64,000 nucleotides of DNA, taken from the NCBI GenBank assembly GCA_903840415.1, contig CAIMFY010000074.1, positions 62,001 to 126,000 on the forward strand. The letters are read 5' to 3'. This document shows positions 54,914 through 56,834 of this stretch, piece after piece (position 1 is the stretch's first letter; every line of letters begins with the position of its first letter). A program made the position numbers and the translations under genes. The stretch comes from an uncultured Opitutia bacterium. GTDB lineage: Bacteria; Verrucomicrobiota; Verrucomicrobiia; Opitutales; Opitutaceae. Under the pieces are notes generated by a model, which was not told the DNA's origin, ran no database searches, and saw only the letters and a list, made by a program, of their open reading frames with translations.

Positions 54914-55000
54914 GGTGCGGTATCACGCTTTCTCGCCGCGTCGAAATTCCCTCTTGCCGCCTGCGCGCCGGTGGGGCCAATTGGTTGTCCGTCAACCGTC

Positions 55001-55375
55001 ATGAACGCCGCCGCGTATCTTCCATTTCTCATCCAAGCCATCCTCGCCGCACTCATCACCGGCGGGATCATCGGAGCGAGCCACCTCTTCGGCCAGCGCG
55101 CGAAGCACACGCCGATCAAGGACTCCGCCTACGAATGCGGCATCGCTGGCAGCGGCCTCGCGCATACGCATTTTTCGGTGAAGTTTTATGTGACAGCGCT
55201 GCTCTTCATGTTGTTCGATCTGGAGGTCGTTATCCTCGTGCCGTGGACGTTTATCTACCGCGAATTTCTGCACAACGGCATCGCGATTCTCGGGCCGATT
55301 TTGTTTTTCCTCGGCGTGCTCGTGCTCGGGCTCGTTTACGAAATTAAAAAAGGCGCGCTCGAGTGGGAAAAGTGA
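55001..55375 (+). CDS. nuoA: NADH-quinone oxidoreductase subunit A (stand-alone)
   Basis: A 124-residue membrane subunit of complex I. It has three membrane helices and the conserved loop DSAYECGI with the Cys used in quinone-site studies, then FSVKFYVTALLFMLFDLEVVILVPW (in part). The ATG at 55001 is chosen; ten in-frame codons before it are unlike the family. No nuoB follows; the next gene, 115 bases on, is the diadenylate cyclase fusion. It may be a duplicate or part of a split nuo set. Confidence 0.92.
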   Translation: MNAAAYLPFLIQAILAALITGGIIGASHLFGQRAKHTPIKDSAYECGIAGSGLAHTHFSVKFYVTALLFMLFDLEVVILVPWTFIYREFLHNGIAILGPILFFLGVLVLGLVYEIKKGALEWEK

Positions 55376-55490: not shown

Positions 55491-56834
55491 ATGCGGCTCG
55501 ACAAAATCATCGCGCGCAACCGCATCGTCGACTTGCGCAGTCACGATCTTGAGGGGGCGTTGCAGGAGTTGCTGGCGGTTTCCGTCGAGAGTTTTCCGGA
55601 TCTAAAGCCGGAGTCGCTGCTCAAGGGCCTGCTGGCGCGCGAGAGCACGATGACGACTTACCTCGGCTTCGGCGTCGCGCTGCCGCACGTGCGGGTGAAG
55701 ATGAGCCGCCGCTACATCCTCGCCATCGGTCGCAGTCGCACCGGTATCCGTCACGATGGTGCGATGGACGAGGAGCGCGTGCACCTGATTGTCATGCTCA
55801 TCGCGGGAGAAAAGGCGCGCGATTACCTGCAAGTGCTGGCGTCGATCGCGCGGCAGGTGAAAGAGAAGACGCTGGTCGAGAATCTGGTCAACGCCTCCGA
55901 TCTCGACGCGCTGCACGAGTTGCTCGTCGGCGGTTTCGGCGGCATCCGGCCGGTGCAGGCGCAGCAGAATCGGGTCAATCGGCTGATGTTTCGCGAGGCG
56001 GAGCGTGTGGCCAAAGGCGCCGATTGCAGTGCGATCATGGTGTTTGGCGACACGTTCATCGGCGGCATCCAGCGCGACGCGATCGAGTCGAAGCTCAAAA
56101 CAATCCTCGTTACGCGCAATCCGATCGAACCGAGCGGCGAAGGGGAGGAGTTTGCCGAGACGATTCAGGTGCGCTCGTTCTCGAACCAGCGCATGGCGCA
56201 GCTCCGCAGCGCGATCCTCGTGGCGCTCACCCGTGGCGTGATCAAGTTTACTGATCGCATCTGCTGCCTCGATGGGATGACGGGCAGCAACCAGTTCGAC
56301 ACGCTCGTGGTCATCGACATCGAGCGCGAATTCCAGACGCTGCTCACGGGTCAGACCGCGGATTTGCTGCCGGAGGACGTGAAACCCGAGGTGCTCGAGC
56401 GTGTGATCGCGGTGGCGACGGAGCTGGCGGTCGAGGGTCGCGAGGGTCGCCCGGTGGGCTGCCTCTTCGTGATCGGCGACAACGAGAAGGTTGGCACCTT
56501 CACCAAGCCGCTCGTGCTCAACCCCTTTTTCGGCTATAAGGAGGAAGATCGGAATATTTTGAATCCGTTCATGGATGAAACCGTGAAGGAGTTCTCCTCG
56601 ATCGATGGGGCGTTCATTTTGCGCGGCGACGGGGTAGTGGAGTCGGCGGGCAGTCTCATTCAGGCGACCGATGGCGACTATTCGCTGCCGAGCGGCCTGG
56701 GGAGTCGGCATGCGGCGGCGGCGGGTATCAGTGTGGCCGCGAATTGCATCGCCATCGTGGTGTCGTCGAGCACGAGCCAAGTGACGCTCTTTCGGCGCGG
56801 GGTGATGCTGCCCTTGACGGAAAAGCGCCGTTGA
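55491..56834 (+). CDS. Diadenylate cyclase fused to PTS EIIA and PK_C-like domains
   Basis: A 447-residue protein with three parts. Residues 1-150 resemble a PTS EIIA type-2 (fructose/nitrogen) domain with the phosphorylatable His66 in GVALPHVRV. Residues about 155-300 look like the pyruvate-kinase C-terminal (PK_C) fold (ADCSAIMVFGDTFIGG, KTILVTRNP). Residues about 310-447 are a DisA_N/DAC domain with DGA at 372-374 and GLGSRHAAAAGIS (Arg406, His407). PK_C-DAC is the archaeal DacZ layout, where the RHR motif also lacks the second Arg. Expected to make c-di-AMP from two ATP, perhaps tuned by PTS phosphorylation. No membrane span. Confidence 0.85.
   Translation: MRLDKIIARNRIVDLRSHDLEGALQELLAVSVESFPDLKPESLLKGLLARESTMTTYLGFGVALPHVRVKMSRRYILAIGRSRTGIRHDGAMDEERVHLIVMLIAGEKARDYLQVLASIARQVKEKTLVENLVNASDLDALHELLVGGFGGIRPVQAQQNRVNRLMFREAERVAKGADCSAIMVFGDTFIGGIQRDAIESKLKTILVTRNPIEPSGEGEEFAETIQVRSFSNQRMAQLRSAILVALTRGVIKFTDRICCLDGMTGSNQFDTLVVIDIEREFQTLLTGQTADLLPEDVKPEVLERVIAVATELAVEGREGRPVGCLFVIGDNEKVGTFTKPLVLNPFFGYKEEDRNILNPFMDETVKEFSSIDGAFILRGDGVVESAGSLIQATDGDYSLPSGLGSRHAAAAGISVAANCIAIVVSSSTSQVTLFRRGVMLPLTEKRR

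Follow-up and report, generated by a model that had tools for sequence, protein, structure and literature searches.

An EIIA-DacZ_P-DAC diadenylate cyclase of Opitutales as a putative receiver of a phosphotransferase relay

Introduction

To our knowledge, few of the signals controlling c-di-AMP synthases have been identified. The locus described here raises the question of whether one such enzyme carries its sensor in its own chain. In the window (the whole stretch of 64,000 nucleotides that was analyzed, from an Opitutaceae genome of 4.9 Mb), one gene joins an EIIA domain of the phosphotransferase system (PTS) to a diadenylate cyclase (DAC) domain. A first-pass annotation, made from the sequence alone, read its product as a c-di-AMP synthase wired to the PTS and considered the architecture undescribed. 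The presumed input domain shares a chain with the cyclase and comes with a defined phosphorylation site and a defined upstream relay (Enzyme I and HPr), so that three purified proteins and a single point mutant could reveal what a diadenylate cyclase senses. We therefore asked what the protein is, how widely it is kept, and whether its EIIA domain is likely to receive phosphate and to what end.

Results

One gene encodes EIIA, DacZ_P, and DAC domains

The open reading frame, on the forward strand, starts with ATG and encodes 447 residues, as first annotated. Met1 is unchanged in 48 of 48 diverse orthologues, taken from an alignment of 125 rows that was thinned to 48 rows of less than 85% identity. 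A chance open reading frame was rejected for 55491-56834. The EIIA, PK_C-like, and DAC domains that had been called from motifs were matched by three Pfam models (74, 104, and 75 bits against cut-offs of about 27), and the EIIA and DAC domains, on which that reading depended, both lie far above their Pfam cut-offs. The features to which we refer below are the following:

54971..55375, + strand: nuoA (complex I chain 3), lone, upstream neighbor; PF00507, E 2.6e-28
55491..56834, + strand: EIIA-DacZ_P-DAC diadenylate cyclase, very probably of the DacD class; 447 aa, ATG start
55530..55925, + strand: PTS_EIIA_2 (PF00359), residues 14-145; Pfam E 1.7e-20, 73.9 bits against a cut-off of 27
55638..55640, + strand: Arg50, EIIA active-site arginine; kept in 47/48 orthologues
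55686..55688, + strand: His66, predicted phospho-acceptor; kept in 46/48, Ser in L122 and L123
55824..55826, + strand: Tyr112, aligned with the second EIIA histidine; 43/48 have Tyr
55968..56339, + strand: DacZ_P (PF21755), residues 160-283, akin to the C-terminal domain of pyruvate kinase; E 5.5e-30
56427..56804, + strand: DAC (DisA_N; PF02457) catalytic domain, residues 313-438; E 3.7e-21, 75.4 bits against 27
56604..56612, + strand: DGA motif, residues 372-374; Asp372 and Gly373 invariant
56706..56711, + strand: Arg406-His407 of the GxRH motif; invariant, with Ala replacing the third R of RHR
56763..56771, + strand: Ser425-Ser426-Ser427 at the SEE site; Ser425 and Ser427 invariant, Ser427 in place of the metal-binding Glu of CdaA

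The only DAC protein and the only DacZ_P protein of the window genome are one and the same, this 447-residue fusion. An AlphaFold model of the protein, built from 48 sequences, has a pLDDT of 82.5 and a pTM of 0.59, with low confidence at residues 151-159 and 213-218; in this model the domain folds are reliable and the domain arrangement is not. The best fold match of residues 1-150 is PtsN (1a6j, Z 21.8, rmsd 1.7 over 146 residues), followed by mannitol IIA (Z 16.9). Residues ~290-445 match the CdaS-type structure 2fb5 (Z 16.6), DisA (16.3), and CdaA (15.2), with matches ranging from Z 14 to 16.6. The structure prediction proposed as a check of the annotation thus gives an EIIA part folded as PtsN and a DAC part folded as DisA, CdaA, and CdaS.

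The fusion is kept by nearly all Opitutales

We surveyed 289 genomes of the phylum Verrucomicrobiota for orthologues. Full-length orthologues were found in 25 of 25 genomes of the window's family and in nearly all other Opitutales genomes, the listed exceptions being G102 and G146, as well as in four genomes from two other families outside Opitutales (32-35% identity). The window genome is most closely related to metagenome assemblies of Opitutae and Opitutaceae, with protein identity reaching 96% in the closest of them. The taxonomic survey that had been suggested alongside the domain calls therefore places the EIIA-DacZ_P-DAC architecture in nearly all Opitutales and a few other Verrucomicrobiota, and its near-universal spread in Opitutales indicates a vertically kept core gene rather than a chance fusion.

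The upstream neighbor is conserved too: in 90 of the 91 Opitutales loci with enough sequence, the gene directly before the cyclase, on the same strand, is nuoA, at a median gap of 60 bases. A gene for a PgpH-type phosphodiesterase (PF07698) is present in 17 of 18 genomes tested and absent from G102 alone, a 99%-complete genome that also has no DAC-level match; co-loss of the cyclase and the PgpH-type gene is therefore seen in one genome. The other exception, G146, is a small fragmented assembly in which the cyclase is absent and the PgpH-type gene is present. An Rfam scan of the whole 64,000-nt window returned no match, and thus no c-di-AMP riboswitch there.

The EIIA domain retains its phospho-acceptor histidine

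The first-pass annotation had assigned an EIIA type-2 domain with its phospho-His at residue 66. The Pfam match agrees with this assignment, and the phospho-His motif of PtsN (GIAIPHGKL) aligns with His66 of the window protein. Among the NCBIfam EIIA models, fructose IIA scores best (51 bits), narrowly over PtsN (49); against the PtsN equivalog TIGR01419 the window protein reaches 48.7 bits, below the cut-off of 138.7.

The acceptor is nearly, and not entirely, universal. The annotation had named loss of active-site residues in homologues as a point that would count against it; the DAC motifs are not lost, whereas His66 is lost in one lineage (Ser, 2/48). The two orthologues, both from family f3 (L122, 6997-8373; L123, 6479-7852), have Ser66 and Cys68 in place of His66 and Arg68. 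We considered loss of His66 as a consequence of PTS loss and rejected it, as the genomes concerned (G149 and G176) still contain Enzyme I and HPr. Since this lineage keeps both proteins, phosphorylation is evidently not universally needed. In the window protein, His66 is probably phosphorylated.

The same pattern bears on a different role, in which EIIA would be an interaction module that binds partners (K+ transporters, as PtsN does) and recruits or coordinates the cyclase, leaving DAC activity unchanged. In proteobacteria, PtsN works through binding to K+ transport proteins and to others, e.g., YcgO (PMC11808508); K+ is also governed by c-di-AMP (PMC7900238); and one lineage lost His66 yet retained the EIIA domain. 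However, nearly all orthologues preserve both His66 and Arg50, a conservation that a mere dock would not need. We consider this role unlikely.

The middle domain resembles the pyruvate kinase C-terminal domain

DacZ_P scores 104 bits against a cut-off of 27.4, with the profile matched over its full length, and a DacZ_P-DAC profile matches pyruvate kinase C-terminal domain structures (3eoe, E 7.7e-4). These two matches account for the PK_C-like region of the first-pass annotation. Among the fold-search matches listed, which EIIA and DAC matches fill, none showed a pyruvate kinase likeness of the middle domain; that likeness is supported by the sequence profile.

DacZ_P-DAC proteins also occur without EIIA, in L131 and L129, and L127 has an unrecognized N-terminal region instead; the cyclase unit thus does not need EIIA. 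The single-sequence structure prediction for L131 (pLDDT 40) was unusable. The DAC protein at L129 2-835 lies at a contig edge and its first 43 residues match GroEL 209-251, perhaps a misassembly.

Pyruvate kinase C domains bind effectors. It is conceivable that a small ligand on DacZ_P mainly sets DAC activity, with EIIA as a minor or vestigial input: DacZ_P, with its resemblance to those domains, is common to the EIIA-less L131, L129, and L127, and the phospho-His was lost in one lineage. Yet practically all Opitutales retain EIIA and its acceptor site, and EIIA is conserved about as well as DacZ_P (mean column conservation of 0.65 in both), which makes this account improbable in our judgment.

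The DAC domain has the active-site marks of the DacZ clade

The DGA motif lies at residues 372-374 and the RHA motif is exactly as first annotated, where CdaA and DisA have RHR. Asp372, Gly373, Arg406, His407, and Ser425 are invariant in the 48 diverse and 125 total rows, and Gly404 and Ser427 are also invariant across the 48 orthologues. With the CdaA active site taken for comparison from PMC7288161, most ATP-contacting residues of CdaA are invariant among the orthologues; the third residue of RHR and the SEE glutamates are replaced, giving RHA and SSS in the window protein. Haloarchaeal DacZ proteins (from two plasmids) have RHH and SES at the same two sites, and DacZ of H. volcanii is an active, essential cyclase (PMC6741144). 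Because deviations of these kinds are common to haloarchaeal DacZ, the RHA and Ser427 of the window protein are better seen as marks of the DacZ clade than as decay, and the RHR and SEE residues are not defining in this clade.

Scores of the DAC part against NCBIfam models also favor DacZ (112 bits) over CdaA (32) and DisA (20). The match to the DacZ equivalog NF041371 covers the C-terminal part only, and its 112 bits fall below the cut-off of 430. The kinship with DacZ-type cyclases proposed earlier therefore finds agreement in three respects: the nearest NCBIfam model, the PK_C-related region, and the common active-site deviations.

A catalytically dead DAC acting as a nucleotide sensor would fit the invariant Ser found in place of CdaA's metal-binding Glu, and the change of RHR to RHA. 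We find this very improbable and rejected it: haloarchaeal DacZ, a proven active family, has Ser and a non-Arg residue at the same positions (PMC6741144), the orthologues leave most of the residues by which CdaA contacts ATP unchanged, and the window genome, which has a PgpH-type gene, encodes no other DAC. The window protein is very likely a working c-di-AMP synthase.

The window genome encodes relay proteins and lacks a PF02378 permease

Besides the cyclase, the window genome has a single gene each for Enzyme I (602 aa) and for HPr, whose histidine is present, and three further EIIA-like genes. A profile search with the EIIC family PF02378 found no match in this genome; the same family is absent from 41 of 47 related genomes and present in 6. 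Of 50 related genomes searched, all 50 have Enzyme I and 49 have HPr. Two EIIA-like proteins are of separate interest. At L004 1441-2253, in the window genome, a 270-aa EIIA-domain protein directly follows an apparent P-type cation ATPase gene, another possible link between the PTS and ion transport, and L005 1117-1827 encodes a protein that is N-terminally helix-turn-helix and weakly EIIA-like in its C-terminal part.

According to a review (PMC13104625), transport EIIAs use the second EIIA histidine for phosphate transfer to EIIB, and in PtsN this residue points away. With this histidine replaced by Tyr and PF02378 EIIC absent, the EIIA of the window protein looks like a regulatory end-point, as PtsN is. 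These observations point to an EIIA that ends the relay rather than passing phosphate to a sugar permease. A PtsN-like working is also what the fold and the genome context look like, with the equivalog score under its cut-off. That EIIA is instead a working transport component handing phosphate to an EIIB/EIIC permease, as the best NCBIfam model might suggest (fructose IIA, 51 bits against 49 for PtsN), is scarcely credible and was rejected on the absence of PF02378 EIIC from the genome and the Tyr at the second histidine, the fold also being nearest PtsN.

A gene cluster in family f24, a sister lineage (L125 4710-11669, L128 3742-12720) sets the cyclase among PTS genes. It begins with pntA and pntB (NAD(P) transhydrogenase), a zinc ribbon-EIIA protein, and a radical SAM protein (the zinc ribbon and radical SAM calls were made on the L125 copies), and continues with EIIA-DacZ_P-DAC and an APC amino-acid permease that carries EIIA at its C terminus. 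In L128 (G160), the cyclase and permease genes are separated by a gene for Enzyme I. Of the independent evidence that the cyclase EIIA is part of a PTS relay, this linkage is the strongest. Taken with Enzyme I, HPr, and the absence of PF02378 EIIC, it leaves the proposed wiring of the cyclase to the PTS better supported than before.

Discussion

Of the first-pass annotation, the domains, the phospho-His, and the relationship to DacZ have stood, but the architecture is not undescribed: Opitutales proteins were already listed as DacD, and Pfam has a DacZ_P model. The DacD representatives listed in 2019 are proteins from Lacunisphaera limnophila, a Puniceicoccaceae bacterium, Coraliomargarita, and Opitutae; the other classes there are DacA, DacB, DacC, DacE, and DisA, with Corrigan & Gruendling 2013 cited (PMC6741144). 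Lacunisphaera is, by taxonomy, a genus of Opitutaceae, and the window protein is therefore very probably DacD, an assignment based on the clade of the representatives and on orthologues throughout Opitutales. Galperin 2023 (J Bacteriol) reportedly sorted DAC architectures into classes and defined domains of a DacZ_N superfamily that are related to PK_C. A full-text literature search for EIIA and c-di-AMP, to which Corrigan & Gruendling 2013 and Galperin 2023 were external, returned nothing on EIIA-DacZ_P-DAC. The literature searched likewise contained no experimental work on the DacD class and no case of covalent PTS input to a diadenylate cyclase. The architecture is thus known in kind.

On balance, we favor the reading that the protein is the sole housekeeping c-di-AMP synthase of its genome and that its EIIA would be the receiver of a regulatory, apparently transport-free PTS relay controlling DAC. 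Three domains with conserved acceptor and catalytic residues are present, as are Enzyme I, HPr, and a PgpH-like protein, and PF02378 EIIC is absent. In the proposed mechanism, PEP would phosphorylate Enzyme I, then HPr, then His66, whose phosphorylation state would follow the PEP:pyruvate ratio. That state would pass to DAC through the pyruvate-kinase-C-like DacZ_P, by changes in DacZ_P and in how DAC pairs, and the conversion of ATP to c-di-AMP would be raised or lowered; c-di-AMP would in turn be removed by the PgpH-type phosphodiesterase. We infer that HPr phosphorylates His66, that this changes cyclase activity, whether up or down, and that the cyclase makes c-di-AMP. Counting against the relay are the Ser66 orthologues, the EIIA-less DacZ_P-DAC proteins, and the other EIIA proteins of the window genome, which could take the phosphate.

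We put forward only tentatively, as a possibility, the fuller proposal of a direct PTS-to-c-di-AMP phosphorelay in Opitutales and related Verrucomicrobiota, in which PEP:pyruvate would act through His66 to switch the only synthase and thereby K+ and osmotic control. If true, a PTS with no evident permease would gain a clear output, PtsN-type EIIA and c-di-AMP, two systems that separately control K+, would be joined, and K+ and osmotic control would take direct input from carbon and energy state.

Several known systems provide a comparison. With the DacD class the window protein has in common the Opitutales representatives and its place as the single DAC of an Opitutaceae genome, a comparison made by clade rather than by sequence alignment. 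It has the DAC fold and the catalytic DGA and RH residues of CdaA and DisA; unlike these, it has neither the membrane helices of CdaA nor the DNA-binding part of DisA, and its regulatory domains are others. DacZ of Haloferax volcanii and relatives (NF041371) is closer, with a PK_C-related N-terminal region, the nearest NCBIfam DAC model, and, as in the window protein, a non-Arg third residue in RHR and a Ser at the metal Glu. It differs in having no EIIA and in its N-terminal Pfam family, DACZ_N, and the window protein scores 112 against its cut-off of 430. PtsN (EIIA-Ntr) is the nearest counterpart of the input domain, alike in fold (Z 21.8), in the phospho-His motif, and in that the window genome is without a PF02378 permease. 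In the Enzyme I of the window genome (602 residues), the PTS_I_fam match begins at residue 27, which leaves no room for a GAF sensor, in this respect unlike the PtsN system. Finally, PtsN is free-standing, whereas the window EIIA, far under the PtsN equivalog cut-off, is joined to a cyclase.
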